Assembly (NCBI GenBank): GCA_020722685.1
Contig: DYKH01000132.1
Location: forward strand, 2,811-14,048
Length of the DNA: 11,238 nucleotides
Origin: Caldithrix sp.
GTDB lineage: Bacteria > KSB1 > UBA2214 > DYKH01
Direction: 5' to 3'
Below are positions 1 to 11,092 of this stretch, in pieces. The translations under genes and the position numbers were made by a program. Each line of letters opens with the position of its first letter. Positions within the stretch are counted from its first letter, which is position 1. The notes under the pieces are model-generated. The model saw only the letters and a list, made by a program, of their open reading frames with translations, was not told where the DNA came from and did no database searches.

Positions 1-122
1 TGGCAAATCAGAGATTTGCCCTACAGTGGCGCAGGTCTCCGACTTGCGGATTTGGCAAATCAGAGATTTGCCCTACAGTGGCGCAAGTCTTTGACTTGCG
101 GATAATGGCAAATCAGAGATTT
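1..122. repeat. Tandem double-hairpin repeat, two full units and one partial
   Basis: Unit 1 (1-52) and unit 2 (53-105) are near-identical, and a partial third unit begins at 106 and runs into the end of arsC. Each full unit has two short palindromes: GGCAAATC-AGA-GATTTGCC (stem 8, loop 3) and CGCAAGTC-TTT-GACTTGCG (stem 8, loop 3). Unit 1 has variant bases in the second hairpin (CGCAGGTC-TCC-GACTTGCG) that keep pairing through a G-T wobble, which suggests the structure is maintained. The same element recurs at 1473-1562. It looks like a REP-type or MITE-like dispersed repeat. Sitting directly after arsC on the minus strand, it may also stabilise or end the arsC transcript, but there is no clear U-tract. 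Confidence 0.85.
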
Positions 123-517
123 ATCTCACGCAACAAGGTAGGAATCACTTGCGCTATTTCATCGCGCACCTTGCGAAAGTCATCCATGTTATCCGTCTTT
201 GCCGGATCGGGAAAACCGTAATGGACGCGCTTTCCCTTCCCAAGCCAAACGGGACATTCCTCCGCAGCTGAATCGCATACGGTGACAACGAGATCAAAAT
301 CCACATCCCGAAATTCGTCTGCCTGCTTCGACCGACCCTCGTGTTGGATGCCGATTTCTCGGAGCGCTTCCAACGTCTTTGGGTGTACGTAACCCGCAGG
401 CTTTGTCCCCGCGCTGACGGCTTCCCACTCTTCGCCCAAGCGCGCATTGACGATTGCCTCTGCCATCTGTGAACGGCAGGAATTTCCAGTGCATAAGAAT
501 AAGACTTTTTGTTTCAT
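113..517 (-). CDS. arsC: Arsenate reductase ArsC, thioredoxin-coupled (low-molecular-weight phosphatase fold)
   Basis: Cytoplasmic enzyme that reduces As(V) to As(III), the form exported or sequestered. The 134 residues match the usual length of the thioredoxin-linked class. The phosphatase-type P-loop CTGNSCRSQ supplies nucleophile Cys9 and Arg15. Cys81 and Cys88 in CDSAAEECP are the pair that forms the relay disulfide, matching the Cys10/82/89 layout of the staphylococcal pI258 enzyme. The FPDP motif near residue 102 supplies the general-acid Asp. The start is supported by a GAGGA-like ribosome site about 8 bases upstream. It is the last gene of the arsRDAC operon, 34 bases after arsA. The final three codons and the stop lie inside a copy of the hairpin repeat at 106-122. 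Family assignment is firm; coupling to thioredoxin rather than mycoredoxin is inferred from the cysteine pattern. Confidence 0.96.
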   Translation of the reverse strand: MKQKVLFLCTGNSCRSQMAEAIVNARLGEEWEAVSAGTKPAGYVHPKTLEALREIGIQHEGRSKQADEFRDVDFDLVVTVCDSAAEECPVWLGKGKRVHYGFPDPAKTDNMDDFRKVRDEIAQVIPTLLREINL

Positions 518-551
518 TAAAATTATCCTCTTGGCTAATATATAATCACCG

Positions 552-1457
552 CTACGCCCGCATATCGGTGAGGGCTTTACTGGCGAAGAAGATTTTCCCC
601 ACCTGACGCAGTTTCGCCGCGCCCTTGATCTCGTCTGAAAGCAGGGTCATGCGCCGTTTGGGATATGTGAACTCGCGCTCAATCTGAGTGAGATAGCGCG
701 CCTGCATTTCAGCGCGCGCCGCAAAGAGCGGATTATCCGCCCCATCGGGCGGGATGATGCCATTGATGATCAAACGGAAATTGTGGATATCCAGTTTGCG
801 CAGCTCGTCAATCGCACGGCCGGTTTCATTAATAGATATCGCTTCGGGGTGCAGGACGAAGACGAATTGCGTTTGCGCCGACTGACGCATGGCGGCCAGG
901 GCGCGTTCGTATTTGTGTTTGGCATCCTGAATAGCCGCGGCGGGGCCCAGGCAGGTCTGCCCGCTGCCCGCGCTAGCCGCGTCGATGGACTGACTCCACT
1001 CAGCGGGCAGTTCCAGCAAACGGATAGTGTGACCCGTCGGTGCGGTGTCGAAGATGACGATATCGAAGGCATTCCCGTTTTGAGAGGGGATGTCCAGAAA
1101 ATCGGTGAAGCGGTCAAAGGCGGCGACCTCCGCCGTACAGGGTCCGCTCATTTGCTCTTCCATCACCTGCACAATCTGCGGTGGGAAAGCAGCGCGGATG
1201 GGCGCCATGGCGTGGTCAATGTATTCCTGCGTGGCTTTGTTGGGGTCAATCTCCATCGCAGAAAGGTTAGGAACGCCCGCAATCGGCGTGACCTGATGCC
1301 CGATTTCCTGCTCAAAGACATCCGCCAGGTTGGAGGCCGGGTCGGTGGTGACGATGAGGGTGCGCTTGCCTTCATCAGCATAGCGTACAGCGTGCGTGAA
1401 GGCTATGCTGGTCTTGCCGACGCCGCCTTTGCCAGAGAAGAAAATGAATTGAGGCAT
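552..1457 (-). CDS. arsA: Arsenite-stimulated ATPase ArsA, single-domain form
   Basis: ATPase of the SIMIBI/GET3 class that energises arsenite efflux when bound to an ArsB-type permease. About 301 residues, half the size of the duplicated E. coli R773 ArsA, so it probably works as a homodimer. The deviant Walker A GKGGVGKTS is at residues 9-17, and the ArsA signature DTAPTGHTIRLL is at about 137-148. The metalloid-binding cysteines appear to be Cys107 (in MSGPCTAEVAAFDRF) and Cys169 (in GSGQTCLGP), corresponding to the pair in the first half of R773 ArsA. I chose the ATG at 1455-1457, with AAGGA just upstream; the earlier in-frame ATG at 1479-1481 lies inside a repeat element. It follows arsD after a 106-base repeat-filled gap and precedes arsC by 34 bases. 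No permease gene is present in the window. Confidence 0.95.
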   Translation of the reverse strand: MPQFIFFSGKGGVGKTSIAFTHAVRYADEGKRTLIVTTDPASNLADVFEQEIGHQVTPIAGVPNLSAMEIDPNKATQEYIDHAMAPIRAAFPPQIVQVMEEQMSGPCTAEVAAFDRFTDFLDIPSQNGNAFDIVIFDTAPTGHTIRLLELPAEWSQSIDAASAGSGQTCLGPAAAIQDAKHKYERALAAMRQSAQTQFVFVLHPEAISINETGRAIDELRKLDIHNFRLIINGIIPPDGADNPLFAARAEMQARYLTQIEREFTYPKRRMTLLSDEIKGAAKLRQVGKIFFASKALTDMRA

Positions 1458-1472
1458 GGTTTTCCTTATCAT

Positions 1473-1562
1473 GTGGCGCAAGTCTTTGACTTGTGCTTTA
1501 TGGCAAATCGCTTTATGGCAAATCAGAGATTTGCCCCACGGTGGTGCAAGTCTTTGACTTGC
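1473..1562. repeat. Double-hairpin repeat between arsD and arsA
   Basis: Second location of the repeat seen at 1-122. It contains the CAAGTC-TTT-GACTTG hairpin at 1476-1496, a truncated start of a CAAATC unit (about 1500-1509), a full GGCAAATC-AGA-GATTTGCC hairpin at 1517-1535 and another GCAAGTC-TTT-GACTTGC hairpin at 1546-1562. It fills almost the whole arsD-arsA spacer and touches the arsD stop codon. In the arsRDAC mRNA these would be strong consecutive stem-loops, which could uncouple arsA from arsD expression or protect an mRNA end. That role is inferred. Confidence 0.85.
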
Positions 1563-1563
1563 G

Positions 1564-1908
1564 CTACAACGCCGCTTTGACTTCGTCCAGCGTGGGATAC
1601 GCCCCCGCCTTAATCACCTTGCCGTACACGACGATAATAGGCAAAGCCTCCAACTGCTTTTCGCGCACCAGTTTCATCACCTCGGCATTACCCAGAAAAG
1701 CGTTGGGGTGGCTAGTCATCTGGTAGCGTTCTATCCGGATGCCCTGGGTTTGGAGTGAGAGTATCATCTCGTTGACATCCAGCAACGTTTGGTCGAGTGT
1801 TGGTCCGCACAACCCGGTAGGACAGCATAAGGATGGATCGAAGAATTCAACCTCGACGGGTTGGGGAGCTTTGGGTGGAGAATCCAGAATCTGGATGGTA
1901 TCTGTCAT
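1564..1908 (-). CDS. arsD: Arsenite metallochaperone ArsD
   Basis: Small cytoplasmic protein that binds As(III) and hands it to ArsA, and in some operons acts as a weak second repressor. The 114 residues are typical of the family. The hallmark segment FDPSLCCPTGLCGP places Cys28, Cys29 and Cys34 in the vicinal-plus-third-cysteine pattern of R773 ArsD (Cys12, 13, 18). The N-terminus is about 16 residues longer than R773 ArsD and proline-rich. A thioredoxin-like fold is expected; the segment LEALPIIVVYGKVIKAGAYPT is the conserved C-terminal part. The start is fixed by GGAGG about 9 bases upstream. It sits 38 bases after arsR. The ribosome site lies in the loop of a short inverted repeat (see the 1914-1929 entry). 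Confidence 0.95.
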   Translation of the reverse strand: MTDTIQILDSPPKAPQPVEVEFFDPSLCCPTGLCGPTLDQTLLDVNEMILSLQTQGIRIERYQMTSHPNAFLGNAEVMKLVREKQLEALPIIVVYGKVIKAGAYPTLDEVKAAL

Positions 1909-1913
1909 AATGG

Positions 1914-1929
1914 TTCAACCTCCGTTGAA
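1914..1929 (-). promoter_or_regulatory. Inverted repeat enclosing the arsD ribosome-binding site
   Basis: On the minus strand the sequence reads TTCAAC-GGAG-GTTGAA, 6-bp arms around the core of the arsD Shine-Dalgarno. The TTCAA-N6-TTGAA spacing is the same as in the core of the putative ArsR operator at 2331-2360. It could be a second ArsR binding site inside the operon, or an RNA hairpin presenting or hiding the ribosome site. The arms are short, so chance is not excluded. Confidence 0.45.
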
Positions 1930-1946
1930 GTAATCTGGCAAAAAAC

Positions 1947-2345
1947 TTAGGTTCCCGTGACAATTTCGTCAGCAGCCATAAAACTATTTTGCGGGCCGCA
2001 AGCCGGTCGGCGCGGCTGGATGCGGTTCGGGTTGAAGAACGCGCCAAAAGCGGCATTGAGTTCTTCCAGCGCGGCGCGGTTGATTGAGTAATACACCCAG
2101 CGGGAATCAAATGCGTCACGTTCTACATTCACAAGCCCGGCAGCGCGCAATCTGCTTAAGTGGTGCGAAATTAAGTTGGGCGCCATTTGCAGGTTGTCGC
2201 CCAGTTCGCAATTACACTGCACGCCTTGCATCAACAGGTTGAAGATGAGCAAGCGTTTAGGCTCGGCAAGAACCTTTAGACGCTCAGCCAGGGTTTCAAG
2301 GTTGACCGGAGGAAATTTTAATTCACTGGAAATATAGTTCAACAT
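1947..2345 (-). CDS. arsR: ArsR/SmtB-family arsenic-responsive repressor
   Basis: Winged-helix repressor of the ars operon that leaves DNA when As(III) binds. 132 residues from the chosen start. The helix-turn-helix is visible in NLISHHLSRLRAAGLV (about 57-72) followed by the wing SRWVYYSI (about 81-88). The expected metalloid site is near the recognition helix: QCNCELGDNL with Cys44 and Cys46, a CxC version of the classical ELCVCDL motif; Cys116 near the C-terminus may be a third ligand. I place the start at the ATG at 2343-2345 because a perfect promoter lies immediately upstream, putting the transcript start at or within a base or two of this ATG. No Shine-Dalgarno is visible, which fits a leaderless mRNA. 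The upstream in-frame ATG at 2361-2363 falls between the -35 and -10 elements and so would not be transcribed from this promoter. Confidence 0.92.
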   Translation of the reverse strand: MLNYISSELKFPPVNLETLAERLKVLAEPKRLLIFNLLMQGVQCNCELGDNLQMAPNLISHHLSRLRAAGLVNVERDAFDSRWVYYSINRAALEELNAAFGAFFNPNRIQPRRPACGPQNSFMAADEIVTGT

Positions 2346-2360
2346 ACATTGAATTATATT
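2331..2360. promoter_or_regulatory. ArsR operator, 12-6-12 inverted repeat
   Basis: AATATAGTTCAA (2331-2342) and TTGAATTATATT (2349-2360) are inverted copies with a single mismatch (position 2354 against 2337), separated by six bases. The palindrome covers the -10 hexamer, the expected transcription start and the arsR ATG. This is the position and symmetry expected for an autoregulating ArsR dimer that blocks RNA polymerase. Binding itself is inferred. Confidence 0.82.
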
Positions 2361-2380
2361 CATAAACAAACATCTGTCAA
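2353..2380 (-). promoter_or_regulatory. Consensus sigma-70 promoter of arsRDAC (leaderless)
   Basis: On the minus strand TTGACA (2380-2375) and TATAAT (2358-2353) are both perfect matches to the housekeeping consensus, with a 16-bp spacer. Transcription should start about 7-8 bases after the -10, at 2346 or 2345, the first base of the arsR ATG. The 3' half overlaps the ArsR operator, so the strong promoter is expected to be tightly repressed without arsenite. Confidence 0.85.
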
Positions 2381-2463
2381 GGATGAATGTCAGCAGGAGA
2401 ACGTGACGGATGGCAAAATGGACCACAGCGGTGGCGTAAAGAAGGCGTAATACACTCCGAGCC

Positions 2464-2503
2464 AAAAACGCCGTCCCGAAAGATCATTCTCCTTCGGGAC
2501 GGC
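2464..2503 (-). terminator. Rho-independent terminator of the ttrBCA operon
   Basis: On the minus strand GCCGTCCCGAA (2503-2493) pairs perfectly over 11 bp with TTCGGGACGGC (2480-2470), loop of 12 bases, followed after one base by TTTTT (2468-2464). It starts 27 bases after the ttrA stop codon. It separates the respiratory operon from arsR, which has its own promoter. Between this terminator and the arsR promoter (2381-2463) I see no gene or other signal. Confidence 0.92.
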
Positions 2504-2530
2504 GCAACGCCTAACATTTAACGATTATTA

Positions 2531-5500
2531 TCAGATTTTCTCCACTTTCACTTTCGTATCGTAGAAGCTGGCACTGCCGCCGATGGGATCGGTCAGGCAG
2601 GTGGTCTGCGTGCCTTCATCAAGCAGAAGCACCGGGTTCGAGCATACGCCAACATTACGGCGCGGATCGCCCTTGACAATCTTGCCGTCGATGACCACAT
2701 CACGCGCGCCATAGGCCCAGTGACCATAAGACCAGGAGACAAGGATGGAACCAGGACGGGTGGTTTGAGTCAGTTTGACCTCTCCTTGCACAGGCTCCGT
2801 GTGACCGTTGCCTAGATCAAGCATGCCATTCGGGTTGGTGCGTGAGGTCAGTTTAACCATGTCGCCATCCTTCAATCCCAGCGAGATGGCGTCTAGCGGA
2901 TTGATGAGCACATGGTTGGTCGGGATAATGCCCATACCGCCTTGCGTCCAGTAGTTACTGATGGTGCGGGATTGTCCGCCGGTGACTTCCTTATAAGTGA
3001 CGACCGAGAAGGGATAGTCCTGGTTGTCCACGGGCGCGCCGGTGCTGTTTTGAGGCGGCTCGTAGTGTGGCACACCGCTGAAGGGTTTGCCGGTGATGCT
3101 GTCTTTACCAGTAGCGACCGGCTCGACGAAGATGTTCATCTGCGAGCCAAAAGCGTGTGCCAGGAAAGGACCGGAATAACTCTTGTCCGGGGAGTCGAAA
3201 CGCCCGCCGCGATTGAGCACATAAACGACTTTGCGCCAGAGGGATTCGCCGACAGCGGCCATCCACTTTTGTTCATCGAAAACAGCTTTGGGCAAGTGTC
3301 GACGCGCTTTGCGGAAAATCTCCATCTCGGCGTCGTCCGCATCGGGCACGGCTTCTTCGGCATCTTTCTTGTCGCCAAAGGCGATGTTGGCAATGCCACG
3401 CAGGTAGTAATCCTCGGGACGGTTGAAATCACCGTGCTTACCGAATCCGTTTTTGCCAATGCCAGGCAGTTCGAGCGCCTTGCCGATGGCGATCATCATG
3501 GCTTCCATCGAAATGGGCATTTCTTCGCCGTCCACATTGACGATCTCCGGGACTGGTGCAACCATCGGCTGGCGCACGCGGATATTCTTGATCGGTTCAG
3601 GCGGCGGCGAGCCGAGGAAAGCCCAGCGTTCGGCGTAACTCAGGTCGGGGAACAGGTAATCAGCGTACATCGAAGTTTCTCCAATGACGATGTCGTCGGC
3701 GATGAAGAGCGGGAACTTCTCGGTATCCTGTAACATTTTGATCTGTTCGGCGCCAGCAGGCGCGGCCAGGGCGGGCGTGCCCATGTGCAGCCATAAGATT
3801 TTGATCGGATACGGGTATTGGGCATACGCGGCCGGGATGATTTCCTGATAGACGCTGCTGGTATAGGGATAGAACGGGCGCGGCGCAGGATAATCGGTGA
3901 AGAGGGTGGTCTTTTCGTAAGCCGCGCCTTCGCGGGTTACTTTGACGCCAAACGCGCCCAGTTTGCCGGGATGATCGGCACCCAGGTCGAAGGGCTTGTC
4001 CGCATTGCCAATGGCATTCCAGGCGCCGCCACCTTTGCTGAGTCCACCCTTCCAGTCAATGTTACCGATCAGCAGGTTGAGCGCCACCAGCGCCTGGGCG
4101 GTGTAGTAGCCATTCGTGTGCTGGACTACGCCGCGATAGAATTCGACTCCGGCTTTCTTGCCATGCGAGGTGAACTCGTCTGCCAGGCGGGTGATGGTGT
4201 TCAAATCCACGCCAGCCAACTTTGCCCAGTCTTCCATGCTTTGAGCGGAGGCTTCGTCGAGCAGAAGTTGCAGGCTGCTCTTGACCTTGATGCCTTTGAC
4301 GGAGGTATCCACCAGCAGATCGCCGGTGACCGCAGTCTTATCGTCCGCCGGGTCAACCAGGGCGGGAACTCCAGCAGTCAACGCGACGAAGGGATCGAGT
4401 TTGAAGACGACACCGTCCGGTGTGACCCAGGTTGCGATCACTTTTCCATCCGCATCGGTCTCTTCCTTCTTCTCGACCAGCTGCAGTTCGCTGCCGCGCA
4501 GGAATGCTCCTGCATGACCCTTCTCATCCAGCTTGACCAGCCAGGTGGAGTTCGTCCAGGATTTTTCGCCCGCAGCCAGCGCGGCGCCTTTGTTGGCGGA
4601 AGCCAGAAATTTAGAGTCATAGCGTTCATTCTCGAAAATCCAGCGGATCATCGCCAGCGCCAGCGGCAGGTCGCCGCCCTGTTGAACGGGAATCCACCAG
4701 CCTTTGGCGGCGGTCTTCGACATGCGCGGATCCACAACCGCGAACTTGAGGTTATGGTCGACCACGCCTTTGGTCACAGCTTCGCTCATGATGGTCGGAC
4801 CGAAGTTGGCTTCAAAGGGACTGGTGCCCCAGAAAATCACGAACTCGGAGTTGACGGTATCCGGCTTCATGTGGTTCGGGCCCGTCGCCCATTTTCCATC
4901 TTTGTATTGCGCGGTGGCATAGGTGTAAGCGATGTGATGTGACTGCTCGCAGATGGTGGTGTGGTCGTACCAGTTCTTCGAGCCGAAGGAATTGAGCGTG
5001 AAGCGTTGGGCGAAGTTGTTGCGCCCCGGTTCGATGCGCCCGGCCTGGAACACAAACTGGTTGTTCTTGACACCCAGATCGGGATGTTCGGGATCGATCA
5101 ACAGGTCTAGTTCCGCGGCGTGCTTGGTCTTGAACTCATCCAATTTCATCTTGCCGCCAGCAACGGCGGAAGCATCCGCGGACAACGCGGAAATGAGCTT
5201 GGCGTCTTTCGTTGCCAGCACATCCTTGAAGCCCGGCACGACACGGTCTTCGCCAGCCTCGGCAAAGAGTTTGCCGCCGTTGACAATTTCAGCGATGGCC
5301 TGCTCGAACGGAATGACCTGCCACTTGTTTTCGCCACGCTTGCCGGCGCGCTTCAACACCTTGACAATACGGTATGGGTCATACTGCGTCTGGATGGTGG
5401 CTTGTCCCTTGGGGCAGAGTTTACCGTCCACCAGAGCGGATTCCGTGAGCGGGCTATCGTAAGCCAACGGCCTCATCATATTGTTTGGGCTGTACGGGTT

Positions 5501-5764
5501 GCCGTCCACCTTGACCAACACGCCATCCTGGATTTTGCCTTTGATGGTGCATTGCGTGTTGCATTGCAGGCATTCGCCGTAGATGATGTTTTCCGGGCTG
5601 GCTTGGAAGTAACTGCCTTCCCCGGAGGCGGCTAAAGTCTTTTGCGTTTTGGCGAACACTTCGCCCATGTTGCCCAGCAAAGCGACCGTCGCGCCAGTCA
5701 CACCGGAAAGTTTGATAAAGTCTCGGCGGGAAAGTTCTTGTTTTTTGGAAGTAGGCTCAGTCAT
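2531..5764 (-). CDS. ttrA: Molybdopterin oxidoreductase catalytic subunit, tetrathionate reductase TtrA-like
   Basis: Catalytic subunit of a DMSO-reductase-family enzyme with bis-MGD and one [4Fe-4S] cluster, acting outside the cytoplasmic membrane. 1077 residues from the ATG at 5762-5764, which has AAAGGAGG about 8 bases upstream; an in-frame ATG 15 codons earlier lies inside ttrC. A Tat signal is clear: SRRDFIKLSG at 12-21, then a short hydrophobic stretch. The N-terminal cluster cysteines are Cys65, 68, 72 and 117 (CX2CX3CX44C). Cys272 in TTICEQSHH is the likely Mo ligand. Stretches such as KRGENKWQVIPFEQ, LNSFGSKNW, GEKSWTNSTWLV, EFTSHGKKAG and NRPEDYYLRGIANIAFG resemble Salmonella TtrA (about 1020 residues) as I recall it. 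The C-terminal cofactor-binding domain begins near 916. It overlaps nothing; its start is one base after the ttrC stop. ArrA and ArxA are usually shorter. The substrate (tetrathionate, arsenate, selenate or other) cannot be read from sequence; the neighbouring ars genes keep arsenate open. Confidence 0.88.
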   Translation of the reverse strand: MTEPTSKKQELSRRDFIKLSGVTGATVALLGNMGEVFAKTQKTLAASGEGSYFQASPENIIYGECLQCNTQCTIKGKIQDGVLVKVDGNPYSPNNMMRPLAYDSPLTESALVDGKLCPKGQATIQTQYDPYRIVKVLKRAGKRGENKWQVIPFEQAIAEIVNGGKLFAEAGEDRVVPGFKDVLATKDAKLISALSADASAVAGGKMKLDEFKTKHAAELDLLIDPEHPDLGVKNNQFVFQAGRIEPGRNNFAQRFTLNSFGSKNWYDHTTICEQSHHIAYTYATAQYKDGKWATGPNHMKPDTVNSEFVIFWGTSPFEANFGPTIMSEAVTKGVVDHNLKFAVVDPRMSKTAAKGWWIPVQQGGDLPLALAMIRWIFENERYDSKFLASANKGAALAAGEKSWTNSTWLVKLDEKGHAGAFLRGSELQLVEKKEETDADGKVIATWVTPDGVVFKLDPFVALTAGVPALVDPADDKTAVTGDLLVDTSVKGIKVKSSLQLLLDEASAQSMEDWAKLAGVDLNTITRLADEFTSHGKKAGVEFYRGVVQHTNGYYTAQALVALNLLIGNIDWKGGLSKGGGAWNAIGNADKPFDLGADHPGKLGAFGVKVTREGAAYEKTTLFTDYPAPRPFYPYTSSVYQEIIPAAYAQYPYPIKILWLHMGTPALAAPAGAEQIKMLQDTEKFPLFIADDIVIGETSMYADYLFPDLSYAERWAFLGSPPPEPIKNIRVRQPMVAPVPEIVNVDGEEMPISMEAMMIAIGKALELPGIGKNGFGKHGDFNRPEDYYLRGIANIAFGDKKDAEEAVPDADDAEMEIFRKARRHLPKAVFDEQKWMAAVGESLWRKVVYVLNRGGRFDSPDKSYSGPFLAHAFGSQMNIFVEPVATGKDSITGKPFSGVPHYEPPQNSTGAPVDNQDYPFSVVTYKEVTGGQSRTISNYWTQGGMGIIPTNHVLINPLDAISLGLKDGDMVKLTSRTNPNGMLDLGNGHTEPVQGEVKLTQTTRPGSILVSWSYGHWAYGARDVVIDGKIVKGDPRRNVGVCSNPVLLLDEGTQTTCLTDPIGGSASFYDTKVKVEKI

Positions 5765-5765
5765 G

Positions 5766-6896
5766 TTATGCCTCCTTTTGAGATTTCGTAACGAGCGGCA
5801 GAAAGACATCCGCGCCCAATAGCAAACCCAGGATGATCACGCCCAGCAAGCCCGAAGCCACCGCCCATTCGGTTGCGCTGGGGGAATAAGCCAAAGTCAG
5901 GCCGCGCCCTTGAAATGCGCTCGAAAGATTGGGGAGAAAGTCCACTTGCTGAGCGGGGACGAGGATCAGATAACGGGCCACGGCATTACCGAGCAGGATG
6001 AACAGACCCATCAGCCCGACCAAAGCCCCGCTTCCCGCTACTCGACGCTGGGTGAGGACAACGATAGGCAGGACCGCCCCGAGGATGATTTGCACGCCCC
6101 AGAACAACAGGCTGTACTGCCCGAAAAGCGCCGCATTAATCGGCTGGACGATGTCTGGCACATTGCCCTCTAGCGCCTGCGAGTAGAATAGCCAGACAAA
6201 GTACAGGTTCACCACCAGCAAGCCCACCACAGTCATGTTTAGCACAGGGAACAGTTTCTCGTTATCGGCAGGCTTGCTAAAGAAGCCGCGAATGACCAGC
6301 AGCATGGCTGCGCCAGTGGTCAGCGCAAAGAAGATAAACTGCACGGGCAACAGGGCAGCATGCCAGTACATGCGCGAGGCATTCATGCCCAGCATCTTGC
6401 CAGGCGCACCTGCTACGAACAGTGCTACTGCCAGGCCAATAGCCATGACGATTTTCAGCGCCGCATTTTTGGGCTGCTTGATGGAGATGAACAAAGCCAC
6501 CAATCCCAATATGCCAAAGAGGGTGTAGCCCCATACATCTTTGATTTCACCCGAACTCCAGTGGGGCCGCGTGAAGGCCTTGATGAAGCGCTCTAGGTGT
6601 CCGAGGTCAAGACCAATCGCGGCCATTCCCGCTGCCAAGTTGACCAGCGCAGCCCACAGGGCGGTCTGACCCGTCCCCTTAAGCGCGGGAACTTCAAAGA
6701 GCAGGTCGAGGCTGGCCCAGACGAAGCATCCGACCGCGATCCCGCCGAGTAAGAAATACAAGGCCACCCACAGTCCCCAGGTCACGAATGAACCGTATGC
6801 GGCATTTTGATCGCCGAACGCGAAGCGGTCATAAAATCCCCACAGACCGATGAGCAGGGCCAGTACGCCTAGAACATAAGCAATTTTTTTATTCAT
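5766..6896 (-). CDS. ttrC: NrfD/PsrC-family membrane subunit, TtrC-like quinol-oxidising anchor
   Basis: Integral membrane subunit that takes electrons from quinol and passes them to the Fe-S subunit. 376 residues, very hydrophobic, with about ten predicted helices near 5-22, 38-60, 80-98, 122-139, 147-165, 178-203, 220-240, 258-281, 290-312 and 345-367. NrfD-family hallmarks are WGLWVALYFLLGGIAVG near 40-56 and LDLGHLERF near 96-104. TtrC of enterobacteria is somewhat shorter. GGAGG lies about 5 bases before the ATG and overlaps the ttrB stop codon (TAGGAGG), and the stop is one base from the ttrA start, so translation of the three genes is coupled. Family membership is firm; the TtrC label rests on operon order and partners. 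No heme ligands of the cytochrome b type are expected in this family. Confidence 0.92.
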   Translation of the reverse strand: MNKKIAYVLGVLALLIGLWGFYDRFAFGDQNAAYGSFVTWGLWVALYFLLGGIAVGCFVWASLDLLFEVPALKGTGQTALWAALVNLAAGMAAIGLDLGHLERFIKAFTRPHWSSGEIKDVWGYTLFGILGLVALFISIKQPKNAALKIVMAIGLAVALFVAGAPGKMLGMNASRMYWHAALLPVQFIFFALTTGAAMLLVIRGFFSKPADNEKLFPVLNMTVVGLLVVNLYFVWLFYSQALEGNVPDIVQPINAALFGQYSLLFWGVQIILGAVLPIVVLTQRRVAGSGALVGLMGLFILLGNAVARYLILVPAQQVDFLPNLSSAFQGRGLTLAYSPSATEWAVASGLLGVIILGLLLGADVFLPLVTKSQKEA

Positions 6897-6905
6897 CTCA
6901 GCCTC

Positions 6906-7748
6906 CTACACAATGTAATATACGCGGGGTTCGGTGCCGAGTTCTTCCTTCAGCCGAATCACGTTGGGTTTGTTGATGAGTTCGGTCACCAGCGAGTCGG
7001 GATCGTTGGCGTCGCCGAAATAGGTGGCGCGGCCGATGCAGGTGGTGACGCAGGCGGGCAACATGCCATTTTTGACGCGGTGCAGGCAGAAGGTGCACTT
7101 GCGCGCATTACCCACCGGAGAGTTGCGTCCCTCGCGCGCGCGGTTCTCGCCATATTCCACACTGGGGAGGCGCTCATAATCATCCGCGTTGGATTGGCCG
7201 AGGATGAAGTCGAAACCATCGGGCGTGGCTTGGGTATAGGTCTGCCCGAAGTCGAAGGTGCGCGCGCCATAAGGACAAGCCTCTATGCAGGCGCGGCAGC
7301 CAATGCACTGGTCATAATCTATCACTACGATACCTTCCTCGTTTTTATACGTGGCGGTTACGGGACAGACTTCAGTGCAAGGCGGTTCATCGCATTGCAT
7401 ACACGGACGCGGGAGGAATTTCATGCTCACGTTGGGATACGTGCCGACCTCTTCGAAGATCACGGGGCGATAGACCACCCCAGGTGGCAATTTGTTTTCA
7501 GCGATACAGGCGACGGTACAAGAGGTACAGCCCACACATTTGCGCAGGTCAATGACCATCACCCAGCGCCGTTCCGAGGCGGGCTTTTCCAGTGCGCGTT
7601 TCAATTCACGGGTCATCCGCACCAGATCGTCTTCTTTTACCAGCGGGTCATCCATGGCGAGGGGTGAAATTTCCAGCCCTTCAGCCAGCGGAGCGACCAG
7701 CCCGGCAAAAACCTCGGAAGTATACTTGTTTAGTAATTTATCCGACAT
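6906..7748 (-). CDS. ttrB: Four-cluster 4Fe-4S electron-transfer subunit, TtrB-like
   Basis: Electron-transfer subunit linking the NrfD-type anchor to the molybdoenzyme. 280 residues from the ATG at 7746-7748, preceded by AGGAG at about 8 bases; a longer reading frame with an ATG at 7808 has no comparable ribosome site. Sixteen cysteines form four ferredoxin-type clusters: 71/74/77/81, 116/119/124/128, 148/151/154/158 and 218/221/233/237, the last with the long CX2CX11CX3C spacing common in DmsB/PsrB-like proteins. A charged N-terminal extension of about 60 residues precedes the first cluster. I see no Tat or Sec signal, unlike enterobacterial TtrB, so export would have to be as a passenger of the Tat-signalled TtrA. 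First gene of the operon, ending 9 bases before ttrC. Confidence 0.93.
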
Positions 7749-7780
7749 TGGGCTTCTCCTTTTCGAAAAAACTTGGAATC

Positions 7781-7870
7781 CCCTATTAATTCCATCCCTA
7801 TTTTCCACGATTTTGAGATTCGAAGGTAGAAGGAAAATTCCGCTATTTTCCCGTGAGTTGTCAGGGAAAA
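7781..7870. promoter_or_regulatory. Cluster of GGAAAA/TTTTCC half-sites upstream of ttrB (candidate regulator binding region)
   Basis: The 183-base gap between ttrB and the response regulator gene holds a perfect inverted repeat TTTTCCC-N11-GGGAAAA (7846-7852 and 7864-7870), arm centres 18 bp apart. Further copies are TTTTCC at 7801-7806 and GGAAAA at 7832-7837. The longer word CTATTTTCC occurs at 7798-7806 and 7843-7851, and CCCTATT repeats at 7781 and 7796. This density is unlike the rest of the window and is where an activator of ttrBCA should bind. I see no convincing -35/-10 pair, which fits an activator-dependent promoter. The role is inferred. Confidence 0.5.
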
Positions 7871-7884
7871 CCCGACAAACGGGT
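7866..7884 (-). terminator. Weak possible terminator after the response regulator gene
   Basis: On the minus strand ACCCG-TTTGT-CGGGT is followed by TTT (one further T is the last base of the stem). The stem is only 5 bp and the T-run is short, so termination would be weak. It overlaps one half-site of the GGGAAAA inverted repeat. Some read-through from the regulatory genes into ttrBCA is therefore plausible. Confidence 0.3.
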
Positions 7885-7931
7885 GATTAATGTCATGAGA
7901 GAGGTTTTTTAATTTTGCTGAGCGGCAATTA

Positions 7932-8576
7932 TCATTCCCCCGAGATGATCCCCTTTTTCAAAGCAAAACGAACGAGAGCGGCGCGGTTTTTCAACCCCAG
8001 TTTTTCCATACCTCGCGCCCGGTAAGTTTCTACCGTTTTAGTGCTCAGGCTTAATTGCGCAGCAATCTCTGCCGAAGTATGCCCTAGAGCGACCAGTTTT
8101 AGGACACTTTGCTCGCGCTCACTCAAACTTTCCCAGGCATCGGGGGTGAAATCGGATTTGGGCAGCATATCCTCCAGCAGGACGCGCGTCATTGAAGGAT
8201 GAACATATATCTCACCATGTAACATGGCCTGGATGGCGGAGATCAATTCCGAATCAGCGGCTTTCTTGAGCACGTAACCCGCTGCTCCATTCTTGAGTGC
8301 AGTGCGCAGGTATTGTGGATCATCATGCATGGTCAGGATCAGGATTTTGGTCGCCGGGGCGGATTTCCGCAAAGCCGGCAGTGCATCCAGCCCACCCAGA
8401 CCGGGCATAGATAGATCGAGCAGGATCAAGTCGGGCTGAAGCTTGTCAGCCAGTTCGAGGGCTTCGAGCCCGCTGGAAGCCTCGCCGATAACATTAAGGC
8501 CGGGCTGACTTTCCAAGAGAAGCCTCAACCCGGAACGAAGAACAACATGATCATCGGCAAGTAAAATCGTGGTCAT
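7932..8576 (-). CDS. NarL/FixJ-type response regulator with LuxR-family DNA-binding domain
   Basis: DNA-binding response regulator, 214 residues. The receiver domain (1-118) has the acidic pair Asp8/Asp9, phosphoacceptor Asp54 in LILLDLSMPG, Thr81 and Lys103 in GYVLKK, so it should be phosphorylatable. A LuxR-type helix-turn-helix occupies about 148-205 (SLSEREQSVLKLVALGHTS onward, with STKTVETYRARGMEKLGL as the recognition part). It lies 58 bases downstream of the histidine kinase gene and just upstream of ttrBCA, the position of ttrR in enterobacterial ttr loci. The likely target is the half-site cluster before ttrB, and perhaps its own promoter. Function as the activator of ttrBCA is inferred from position; the domain assignment is firm. 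Confidence 0.94.
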   Translation of the reverse strand: MTTILLADDHVVLRSGLRLLLESQPGLNVIGEASSGLEALELADKLQPDLILLDLSMPGLGGLDALPALRKSAPATKILILTMHDDPQYLRTALKNGAAGYVLKKAADSELISAIQAMLHGEIYVHPSMTRVLLEDMLPKSDFTPDAWESLSEREQSVLKLVALGHTSAEIAAQLSLSTKTVETYRARGMEKLGLKNRAALVRFALKKGIISGE

Positions 8577-8634
8577 CTTTCCACTTTACGCATCAACTAT
8601 TACAAATCATTTTTCATGCTCATCGTATGGTAAA

Positions 8635-10053
8635 TCACCACAGCGGAATCTGAACATGAACGCACGTGCCCGCTCCGGGCCGACTCTCTACCGTCAAGCG
8701 GCCGCCAAGAAGCTCGGCACGTTCCCGCATTCCCTCCAGACCCAGATGACGGTTACCAGTTAAACGATCTGGTTCGAACCCTTGCCCATCATCTTCGACC
8801 AACACGATGACATCCCCGCCACGTTGCTCAATCAGCACCGAGACCGAATTGGCGTGGGCGTGGCGGGCTACGTTGGTGAGCGACTCTTGTACAATGCGAT
8901 AGATGACCGTTTCGATCTCACCCGGTAAGCGTTCCTCGCTGATATGGATAAAAAGGTCCAGAGGAGTCTTGTGAAGCGTTTGCCATTCACGAGTAAGTTG
9001 GTCCAGCGCGGCCGGCAATCCGAGGTCATCGAGAATACGCGGACGCAGATGCACCGAGATGTCGTGAACTACTTCTAGTGTTTGTGCGGCAACTTGCCGT
9101 AAAACCTCGGCTTGCTGCTTGAGATAGTCGTCCTGACTGATGGTTTGCAGGTTTTTCAATCCCAACATTAGTGAGGTCAGGTTTTGGGAGGTCGAATCGT
9201 GTAATTCACGGGAAATGCGGCTGCGCTCCTCTTCCTGGGTGACAATTACTTTTTCCAGCAACTGGCGGCGCAGTTGTTCGCGTTCTCGCCGGATTTCATC
9301 CATGCGAGCCAGTTCGATGGTCATGGAGTTAAACGCTTCTGCTAAGTCACCAATTTCGTCATTTGCCCAGCGCGACAAGCGTTTCGAAAAATCACCTAGC
9401 GCCACAGATCGGGAGGCTTCCACCAGTTCCCGCAATGGACGAGTCAGCACAAAGGTCAAGATGGTGACTCCCAGAACACCTATTGCCGAGACCAGCACAA
9501 TCATCAGAAGAATTTGGCCGCTCACAGTGGCAATTGTGGCTCGTAAACCCGTATCTGACAATCCTACTCTTAACATCCCAGCCTGACCATTGAAAATCGG
9601 CACGGCAGTATCCCATACCAAGCCATCCTCGCCCTGGATGATGATCGTATGGCTGTGATCATATTCAGAAAGCCGATTTGCACTCAAAAGCGCTAAAGGA
9701 AAACCGCTGCCAAAAGTGTGCACCAACACCCGACCGTATTTATCTACGATGAATGCGTAGCGTAGTGTGGGATTGTTGGCTTGGGTATCCTCCAATAATT
9801 TTTGCAGCGCAACCAGATCGTTGAGCAAGATGGGATCAGTGGCGCGGGCAGCTAAGTCGCTGGCGATGGTTACGCTTTGGTTCTCTAACTGCAACTGCAG
9901 TGTGCGGGTGAGCGAGGCTCGCACCTGCCAGAGAATGCCGATGCCTAGCAGAAGCACAAGGCCAAGCGCCATGCCCATCATTTTGACGCGCACACTGACA
10001 GCAGAGATCAACCACCACAACTTGCGCCCGAGAGCAGCGAGGGAGTTTTTCAT
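8635..10053 (-). CDS. Membrane sensor histidine kinase, HisKA_3 (NarX/DesK-like) type
   Basis: 472 residues. TM1 is about 24-43 and TM2 about 178-203, enclosing an extracytoplasmic domain of some 130 residues (45-177) that looks like a single PAS/Cache-type fold (YAFIVDKYGRVLVHT near 99-113). A HAMP linker (about 204-255) and a short coiled coil follow. The dimerisation box RISRELHDSTSQNL carries His285. The ATPase domain has the N-box QESLTNVARHAH (389-400) and glycine motifs DDGQGF (421-426) and GLEGMRERA (438-446). All catalytic landmarks are present. The start codon overlaps the stop of the binding-protein gene as ATGA and has no Shine-Dalgarno of its own, so its translation is coupled to that gene. 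In enterobacterial TtrS the PhnD-like sensor is fused to the kinase; here it is a separate protein. The signal is not identifiable from sequence. Confidence 0.94.
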   Translation of the reverse strand: MKNSLAALGRKLWWLISAVSVRVKMMGMALGLVLLLGIGILWQVRASLTRTLQLQLENQSVTIASDLAARATDPILLNDLVALQKLLEDTQANNPTLRYAFIVDKYGRVLVHTFGSGFPLALLSANRLSEYDHSHTIIIQGEDGLVWDTAVPIFNGQAGMLRVGLSDTGLRATIATVSGQILLMIVLVSAIGVLGVTILTFVLTRPLRELVEASRSVALGDFSKRLSRWANDEIGDLAEAFNSMTIELARMDEIRREREQLRRQLLEKVIVTQEEERSRISRELHDSTSQNLTSLMLGLKNLQTISQDDYLKQQAEVLRQVAAQTLEVVHDISVHLRPRILDDLGLPAALDQLTREWQTLHKTPLDLFIHISEERLPGEIETVIYRIVQESLTNVARHAHANSVSVLIEQRGGDVIVLVEDDGQGFEPDRLTGNRHLGLEGMRERAELLGGRLTVESRPGAGTCVHVQIPLW

Positions 10054-10967
10054 GGTAGGTCAGGGAGGAAAACCTCCTGCATCAAGGAGCGCGCATTGGC
10101 GTATGCCTTGTCCTCGATAAAGATGAATCTGTCTATGCCAATCTCATCCAGCGCGGCTCGCCCCAGTGGATCTCCATCCATCTCCAGCAACAGAGATTGC
10201 AATTCGGCTTTAATCTGCGGGCGGAGGTTTGGGTTAACGACCACTGGCGGAATGCCGAAGGGAGGAGAGCGCATAATCACTTTGACCTTCTGAGCCAGAG
10301 TTGGGTCGCGTCTCAATGCAAATTCATAAACCATACTATCCACGCTGGCGCCATCTGCCAGACCGCTGGCGACTGCGTAAATTGCTTTATCGTGGCTGTA
10401 GGTATAAAAAGTGCGGCTAAAAAATTCTTCTGGTGTCTTGCCCAATGATTGGACCAGCGCGGTGGGGTAGACGCGTCCGGTGAGCGAGATTGGGTCGGTG
10501 AAAGCGAAAACCTGACCTGCCAAATCGGCAATCTGGTTGACTTTTTTGTCCATCGAGACGATCAAATAAGCATAATACTCTGTTGCGCCGTTCACTTGAG
10601 GGGCAGCCAGCAATTCCAAGTTGAAATCATCATGCCCTACTATATAGGCGCTGGTGCAGACAAAAGCCAGATCCACGTCACCGCGTTCGATTAAGTCATT
10701 GACTTCCAAGTAGGTACGACGCTGGATCAGTTCGACCGGGCGATTCAATTTTTCCCCCAAGTATTCCAGAAGGGAAGTGTATGATTCCACTGTCCCGCGG
10801 GGAGAGATGATTGATGCCACAGCCACGCGCAGCGGGACTTGGTCTAGAGCAGGCGTGGGCAGGGGAGCGAGGTCGTTGAGGGCGATTGTCACATCGGGTT
10901 GTATGCCTGATGAACAGGCAGTGAGCAGGAAAATCAGCAGGAAGACAAGTCGGGAAGGTATGGACAT
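10050..10967 (-). CDS. PhnD-like periplasmic-binding lipoprotein, probable sensory partner of the kinase
   Basis: Phosphate/phosphonate-binding-like protein (PhnD superfamily), 305 residues from the ATG at 10965-10967. A lipoprotein signal peptide ends in LLTAC with lipidated Cys18, followed by a proline-rich linker (to about 45) and the binding fold beginning LRVAVASIISPRGTVESY. Motifs of the superfamily include GDVDLAFVCTSAYIVG, ITDLAG-like QIADLAGQVFAFTDP and GLADGASVDSMVYEF. No transporter permease or ATPase is nearby, and the stop overlaps the kinase start, so a sensory rather than transport role is likely, as with AioX, ArxX/ArrT-type proteins and the TtrS sensor domain. Cys104 is the only cysteine in the mature protein besides the lipidated one. 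The start is favoured over the ATG at 11034-11036, which lies upstream of the predicted promoter; a TAGGAT ribosome site precedes the chosen ATG. The ligand is unknown. Confidence 0.9.
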   Translation of the reverse strand: MSIPSRLVFLLIFLLTACSSGIQPDVTIALNDLAPLPTPALDQVPLRVAVASIISPRGTVESYTSLLEYLGEKLNRPVELIQRRTYLEVNDLIERGDVDLAFVCTSAYIVGHDDFNLELLAAPQVNGATEYYAYLIVSMDKKVNQIADLAGQVFAFTDPISLTGRVYPTALVQSLGKTPEEFFSRTFYTYSHDKAIYAVASGLADGASVDSMVYEFALRRDPTLAQKVKVIMRSPPFGIPPVVVNPNLRPQIKAELQSLLLEMDGDPLGRAALDEIGIDRFIFIEDKAYANARSLMQEVFLPDLP

Positions 10968-10991
10968 ACAAGCTAATCCTATCTGTGTTAT

Positions 10992-11020
10992 ATGATAGTC
11001 CCTCTTACGGAAAATGTAAA
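10992..11020 (-). promoter_or_regulatory. Sigma-70-like promoter of the sensor/regulator genes
   Basis: On the minus strand TTTACA (11020-11015) and TATCAT (10997-10992) each match the consensus at five of six positions with the ideal 17-bp spacer. Transcription would start near 10985, giving a leader of about 20 bases with a TAGGAT ribosome site before the lipoprotein ATG at 10967. No operator-like palindrome is obvious around it, so low constitutive expression of the sensory genes is plausible. Confidence 0.68.
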
Positions 11021-11092
11021 TCCTCGATCTCAGCAATTCTCAATTACCTGGAAATCGTTCGGCGGGCTAGAAGCCTTGCGTCAGTCCAAAAA

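Follow-up and report, generated by a model that had tools for sequence, protein, structure and literature searches.

The ttrBCA-like operon treated here lies in 11,238 nucleotides of DNA from Caldithrix sp. (contig DYKH01000132.1; this whole stretch is called the window below), with genes for a sensor, a histidine kinase and a response regulator in front of it and ars genes behind it, and it resembles several described systems in part. With the enterobacterial TtrRS-TtrBCA system it shares the B-C-A gene order, a catalytic subunit with a Cys ligand to Mo, a membrane subunit C and a PF12974 sensor domain. However, the window protein is 30-31% identical to the canonical enzymes, falls in a separate clade and has different Mo-site residues. 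In addition, canonical TtrS is a sensor fused to its kinase and is without the ArrX pocket, whereas sensor and kinase are separate genes in the window. Sensor family, sensor-kinase-regulator layout and a non-AAA+ regulator are shared with the ArrXSR-ArrAB system of the Chrysiogenes arsenatis type, but the catalytic subunit is TtrA-like and 26% identical to the ArrA of a Chloroflexota genome, G263 (G and L numbers are our handles for genomes and loci). In Melioribacter roseus, which belongs to another phylum, a ttr locus (MROS_1076) is described with a PhnD-like sensor, kinase and regulator (ArrTSR) directly upstream and a different ars set, arsRPCB, adjoining; ttrA was raised on arsenate, and the authors give TtrA an auxiliary role (PMC5492636). 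The archaeal TtrA-family protein PAE1265 of Pyrobaculum aerophilum, likened like MROS_1076 by description only, is tied to growth on arsenate and hypothesised to be a TtrA-type arsenate reductase in papers citing Cozen 2009. Wells et al. describe an archaeal arsenate reductase as part of the TtrA/SrdA family (PMC7331816, PMC10100899).

From its sequence we consider the locus to be, quite probably, an ArrXSR-controlled arsenate reductase of the TtrA family, as hypothesised for Pyrobaculum and Melioribacter. Identities were assigned with Pfam and NCBIfam models on the open reading frames (ORFs). The order sensor-kinase-regulator-B-C-A, given in an earlier note on this DNA, was borne out, all genes being on the minus strand and followed by arsR, arsD, arsA and arsC. 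The parts of the respiratory locus are the following.

10050..10967, minus strand: ArrX-type periplasmic oxyanion sensor (PF12974), a likely lipoprotein with an LTAC lipobox judged by eye; ORF 10050-11036 from TTG 11036, ATG 10967 preferred
8635..10053, minus strand: histidine kinase, sCache_3_2-HAMP-HisKA_3-HATPase by domain models
7932..8576, minus strand: NarL/FixJ-type response regulator, receiver and LuxR helix-turn-helix by domain models; AAA+ not found
7858..7878, minus strand: palindrome TTGTCGGGTTTTCCCTGACAA 5' of ttrB, suggestive in its resemblance to a proposed ArrR site
6906..7748, minus strand: ttrB-like Fe-S subunit, 4Fe-4S dicluster; ORF 6906-7808 from GTG 7808, ATG 7748 with GGAG preferred
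5766..6896, minus strand: ttrC-like NrfD membrane subunit, by ORF and domain models
2531..5764, minus strand: ttrA-like molybdopterin catalytic subunit, 1077 aa from ATG 5764 (ORF 2531-5809), with a twin-arginine (TAT) signal and the Cys Mo ligand in TTICEQSHH

The sensor module

The earlier note touched only briefly on the sensor module, and it is this module that should carry the argument for arsenate. The closest solved relative of the window sensor was ArrX (5.5e-58, 200 bits), followed among the PDB matches by AioX (139 bits), phosphonate- and phosphite-binding proteins (at most 78 bits) and PhnD (35 bits). Seven pocket positions were named by Badilla et al. (PMC5908839), i.e., Y88, C106, Y131, S161, S163, H192 and D210 in AioX numbering. 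They were kept in all 58 sensor orthologues longer than 240 aa from the collected loci, the window included, with S in 27 and T in 31 at position S163. The window sensor has six identical residues and Thr at S163, while the one canonical TtrS compared keeps none of the seven. By scores and pocket residues, the sensor is classed with ArrX/AioX and not as a generic PhnD. "PhnD-like" proved too generic a description; it was dropped as a clue because canonical TtrS likewise has a PF12974 domain, and the two are separated by pocket residues and scores.

ArrX is reported to bind arsenate (1 uM) and phosphate (150 uM) in isothermal titration calorimetry (ITC), and tetrathionate, thiosulfate, selenate and antimonite were not bound in the measurements described there; the pocket is common to AioX, ArxX and ArrX, and its residues alone do not set selectivity (PMC5908839). 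ArrR is described as a non-AAA+ regulator with a FixJ-like helix-turn-helix, and AioR and ArxR as having an AAA+ domain. The window regulator fits the ArrR class, with a receiver, a FixJ/LuxR helix-turn-helix and no AAA+ domain found by the domain models. The palindrome TTGTCGGGTTTTCCCTGACAA at 7858-7878 resembles the site tcaggtttttccctga proposed for ArrR 5' of C. arsenatis arrA. The exact motif was present in 8 of the 59 stretches, each about 500 bases long, that lie 5' of ttrB or arrA; 200 Markov resamplings averaged 0.49 (maximum 3), and whole-locus density predicts about 0.9. In shorter regions it occurred in 6/59, compared with 11/339 control ORFs (p 0.03); when one mismatch was allowed, the counts were 18/59 and 57/339 (p 0.02). 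These counts are suggestive of an ArrR-like candidate operator upstream of ttrB.

An orthologous module was also found with ArrA itself. In G263 the sensor, kinase and regulator stand directly 5' of an ArrA (its model gives 1306 bits, the next model 270) and a B subunit, and the kinase has the same four domain types as the window kinase. A short contig of G109 has ArrA preceded by part of a kinase and a window-like regulator. The G263 sensor paired in a quick tree with that of L004, the nearest relative of the window locus (support 90), within a group of 48 rows (support 99). Searched with the sensor by tblastn, plasmids gave 82 records. The 40 that were listed include proteins annotated as AioX, 33-34% identical, and also PhnD transport proteins. 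Two further arrangements were observed. In L132:6864-13486 (G272) the genes behind an ArrX-type sensor, kinase and regulator encode a molybdopterin subunit of another and highly divergent kind, together with a B subunit, and in L086, L099 and L126 two sensor-kinase-regulator sets follow each other, one of the sensors being more divergent.

The nearest relatives found with TtrA were six Chloroflexi loci from metagenome-assembled genomes (MAGs), 73-87% identical, of which G004/L004 is the closest (87%). Sensor, kinase and regulator are near ttrA in four of the six (L001, L004, L005, L006), and none was found in the stretch examined around ttrA in L002 and L003. We surveyed the 396 genomes of the class of G004. 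TtrA matches (1e-50) occurred in 93 genomes and sensor matches in 93 at 1e-25, or 85 at 1e-45 or better. With the sensor at 1e-45, both were present in 77 genomes, TtrA alone in 16, the sensor alone in 8 and neither in 295 (Fisher p 5e-56). At least 61 of the 105 strong sensor matches were on a contig with TtrA and at least 58 within 10 kb of it, these linkage counts being lower bounds because MAG contigs are short. Clear ArrA was present in three genomes (G263, G333 and G109; 957-1306 bits, each short of the strict 1600-bit cut-off), and two weaker matches (386 and 430 bits) were left out of this count. Chloroflexota ArrA has been described before, from cold seeps (PMC10060404).

Other genes recur at these loci. 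An FmdE-like gene (PF02663 and a zinc finger) lies near ttrA in all six nearest loci (L001-L006), e.g., at L005:13751-14368, and near ttrA or the sensor in many of L061-L142; moaA is beside ttrA or the sensor in some. Neither gene was seen in the window. They possibly serve cofactor supply for the Mo enzyme. L088 and L089 have tandem ttrBCA duplicates with FmdE and the sensor module downstream, and in L134:5386-10878 (G369) ttrB and ttrC are followed by FmdE, sensor and kinase, no ttrA being recognised between them.

The catalytic subunit and rival substrates

Plain tetrathionate respiration, i.e., a TtrBCA reductase whose TtrS-like sensor is split and whose ars neighbours are there by chance, would agree with the B-C-A order, with the PF12974 domain of canonical TtrS and with the nearest relative, which is without ars genes in the stretch examined. 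It would also agree with the best curated model for the catalytic subunit, TtrA, but the score of 486 bits is far below the equivalog cut-off of 1750; PhsA gave 172 bits and ArrA 118 (cut-off 1600). In being nearer to TtrA than to ArrA or PhsA, in its Cys ligand and in its B-C-A unit the protein belongs with the TtrA/SrdA/archaeal arsenate reductase superfamily. In a FastTree of 110 rows, with Shimodaira-Hasegawa-like support only and long-branch warnings, it fell in a clade of 75 rows (support 99) that also contains Chloroflexi, a Calditrichaeota MAG and Moorella humiferrea, the last 60% identical. A search with the Calditrichaeota row also matched Deferrisoma camini and Geothermobacter hydrogeniphilus. 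Canonical TtrA, represented by E. coli-plasmid, Proteus, Pseudomonas and Azospirillum sequences, formed a separate clade of 29 rows (support 95) with enzymes from ars plasmids. The earlier note would have settled for plain tetrathionate respiration had this subunit branched inside characterised TtrA and had relatives shown no conserved ars linkage; the 1077-residue protein, in its separate clade, does not branch there. In three protein searches, neither SrdA nor PAE1265 nor MROS_1076 appeared by name in the top 120 of 2337, 417 and 2748 matches, respectively.

The Mo site was compared in 210 rows from the window and Calditrichaeota searches (window included), 66 from the collected Chloroflexi loci and 79 of the Citrobacter-plasmid group, and the Cys ligand was present in all aligned rows. 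In the 210 rows it was followed by E in 209; S occupied +3 in 198, and H occupied +4 in 208 and +5 in all 210. The plasmid group had E, H and H in 79/79 and S at +3 in 77, and the Chloroflexi rows had E..H-H in 26-27 and Q..L-Y in 39. All four canonical TtrA had G..Y-R. Two more columns were compared, which we take to be Arg165 and Lys198 of ArrA. Arg stood in the former in 276/276 and 79/79 rows and in both ArrA, was missing in two haloarchaeal rows and in none of the four canonical TtrA was present. The TtrA homologue at L143:8965-12226, on a plasmid of Halobellus sp. DFY28, is annotated as two overlapping ORFs. These residues separate the clade from canonical TtrA as aligned here and do not by themselves name the substrate. 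With the window's CEQSHH and upstream Arg, the separate clade, the TtrS without a single ArrX pocket residue and the same sensor module before ArrA in G263 all set against it, tetrathionate as the substrate appears unlikely, the canonical controls being few (four TtrA, one TtrS).

Another oxyanion, such as selenate (as in SrdBCA) or antimonate, or a broad range of them, with an ArrX-family sensor tuned to it, is a quite improbable alternative. SrdA is in the same superfamily, a group described as catalytically versatile, and the finding that pocket residues alone do not set selectivity leaves room for such tuning. On the other side, the ITC data reported for ArrX gave binding of neither selenate nor antimonite, and arsC and acr3 recur as neighbours. 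The reverse reaction, an Arx-like anaerobic arsenite oxidase sensed by an arsenite-binding AioX/ArxX-type protein, has the shared pocket and the long AioX branch among these sensors in its favour but is very improbable, given the higher sensor score to ArrX, the regulator without the AAA+ domain of AioR/ArxR and the same module before ArrA.

The ars genes and their linkage

Same-strand arsR, arsD, arsA and arsC do adjoin the respiratory operon, as had been claimed. They had also been called a complete set of cytoplasmic arsenic genes, which was wrong within the window: ArsA is half-length, and no ArsB or Acr3 is among the window ORFs, the window stopping 112 bases past arsC.

2468..2505, minus strand: intrinsic-terminator-like hairpin of 16 pairs with a T tail, 3' of ttrA (sequence match)
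2353..2380, minus strand: consensus sigma-70 promoter TTGACA-16-TATAAT, 12/12, putatively for the ars operon (a consensus match, not proof)
1947..2342, minus strand: arsR, ArsR/SmtB repressor with a CxC motif (VQCNCEL); ORF longer, ATG 2342 preferred because it is located behind the promoter
1564..1908, minus strand: arsD metallochaperone with CCPTGLC, 105 bits (cut-off 90)
552..1481, minus strand: arsA, half-length ATPase of 309 aa, by models
113..517, minus strand: arsC, cytoplasmic arsenate reductase of the low-molecular-weight phosphatase (LMWP)/thioredoxin type; best model, yet under the NCBIfam cut-offs
1..112, no strand: short repeats 3' of arsC, no permease start visible on inspection

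With a T-tailed hairpin behind ttrA and a perfect sigma-70 consensus in front of arsR, the ttr and ars genes are most likely two separate transcription units. The cysteines of ArsD and ArsR are as expected from what we take to be their usual motifs. Window ArsA matches positions 12-296 of a 617-position model and the 580-aa ArsA of G027 positions 12-584 of the same model; the window protein (552-1481) is thus half the size of the full tandem ATPase in this close homologue, either as a natural form or by loss of the second half. By match coordinates acr3 is directly 3' of arsC in G227, G217, G283 and G033, among others. Short repeats, GCAAGTCAAAGACTTGC / GGCAAATCTCTGATTTGCC, were observed at 1-112 and 1482-1563, between and after the ars genes, and similar text precedes acr3 in L138.

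Linkage in the class was measured with the Acr3 of G005 as a probe, TIGR00832 confirming it and two others. It matched 132 of the 396 genomes, with 50 matches in 46 of the 101 genomes that had TtrA or the sensor. Fourteen of these 50 were within 10 kb of ttrA or the sensor, where about 0.63 were expected by random placement with a generous footprint, and 13 of 49 remained without the probe's own genome. For example, 105 bases separate acr3 from a sensor in G370, in G304 it is 230 bases from ttrA, and in G341 arsC is about 143 bases from a sensor (match coordinates). In G027 arsR-arsD-arsA follow downstream of ttrA in the window's order (66-77% identity); an FmdE-like ORF and one more lie between. 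In G005 a divergent arsR and acr3 are upstream of ttrC with one ORF between, the only neighbouring acr3 among the six nearest relatives. Linkage of ars genes to these loci is recurrent but patchy in the class. Since the ars sets differ and occupy different places, this suggests that they joined these loci repeatedly and independently. The survey of ars neighbours proposed earlier accordingly had two outcomes, recurrence far above expectation in the class and near absence of acr3 and ArsD beside the window's closest relatives. Because of this patchiness ars linkage was rejected as the primary argument.

TtrBCA-like clusters with a divergent arsRDABC 183-186 bases away were found on plasmids of Citrobacter arsenatis LY-1, Enterobacter ludwigii (pEL-ars2) and Salmonella (pN17S347-1). 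They share the Mo-site motif CE.SHH and the Arg with the window, but the enzymes are 38% identical to the window's, fall on the canonical side of the tree and have no sensor-kinase-regulator annotated beside them. The plasmid operon may encode an arsenate reductase that accompanies ars resistance. These three clusters (L057, L058 and L148), on conjugative plasmids, were annotated only as 'DsrO' or 4Fe-4S protein, hypothetical protein and molybdopterin oxidoreductase.

Arsenate as the probable substrate and its possible consequences

Several points weigh against an arsenate reductase. ArsD was found in 0/6 nearest genomes. In G004 the 23 kb examined gave no ArsA, ArsD, ArsB, ArsC or Acr3, only a generic ArsR-family match, and no ArsC or Acr3 match was found in the whole genome, a 1.9 Mb MAG that is probably incomplete. 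Three of the 14 near Acr3 matches have an in-frame stop, that of G270 is just 36% identical, and Acr3 presence as such is mildly enriched in genomes with TtrA or the sensor (46/101 vs 86/295, p 0.003). The Arg165-column Arg is also in 34/38 distant rows and is not exclusive to the clade, and the Lys198 column holds His or Tyr in these TtrA-like rows. The sensor ligand could have shifted. The sensor tree puts ArrX outside and AioX inside the 48-row group, a placement that we do not trust because both are very long branches. For M. roseus, only the induction of psr/phsA was reported as statistically clear, and the authors favour Psr/Phs as the main reductase (PMC5492636). Gene identities, conservation of the sensor pocket, co-occurrence of sensor and TtrA, the separate clade and the recurrent ars linkage are observed; ligand, substrate, reaction direction, signalling and electron path are what we infer.

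Recruitment of a TtrA-family enzyme for arsenate respiration, as the earlier note proposed, is supported in part, by the separate clade and the ArrX-type sensor; the ars linkage is not kept in the closest relatives. With an arsenate reductase, the ArrX-type lipoprotein would bind arsenate in the periplasm and signal through its own HisKA_3 kinase to the NarL/FixJ-type regulator, which would turn on ttrBCA. The exported molybdopterin subunit A would then reduce arsenate with electrons passing from the quinol pool to NrfD (C) and the Fe-S subunit (B). Arsenite entering the cell and, after reduction by ArsC, also arsenate that has leaked in would be dealt with by the ars operon, transcribed separately and controlled by ArsR.

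No paper pairing 'ArrX' with 'tetrathionate reductase' was found in the literature searched, and the M. roseus paper calls such a sensor ArrT. The class-wide tie of the TtrA clade to an ArrX-type sensor appears to be new, the tie in one organism having been noted before under that name. We regard it as evenly poised whether a widespread second respiratory arsenate reductase, TtrA-like and run by ArrXSR, replaces ArrA across this Chloroflexota class, and probably in other phyla, under the database name of tetrathionate reductase. The enzyme is encoded in 93 of the 396 class genomes and a clear ArrA in three. Isolates that depend on arsenate but have no ArrAB are on record, and an agreed enzyme for them is described as lacking.

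In arsenate respiration arsenate becomes arsenite, which is more mobile and more toxic. Gene surveys of this process depend on arrA and would, if the reading is true, miss the TtrA-like enzyme. Many genomes labelled as tetrathionate reducers would then be potential arsenic mobilisers, and the ArrX-type sensor would be a sequence marker separating arsenate-type enzymes from true tetrathionate reductases.

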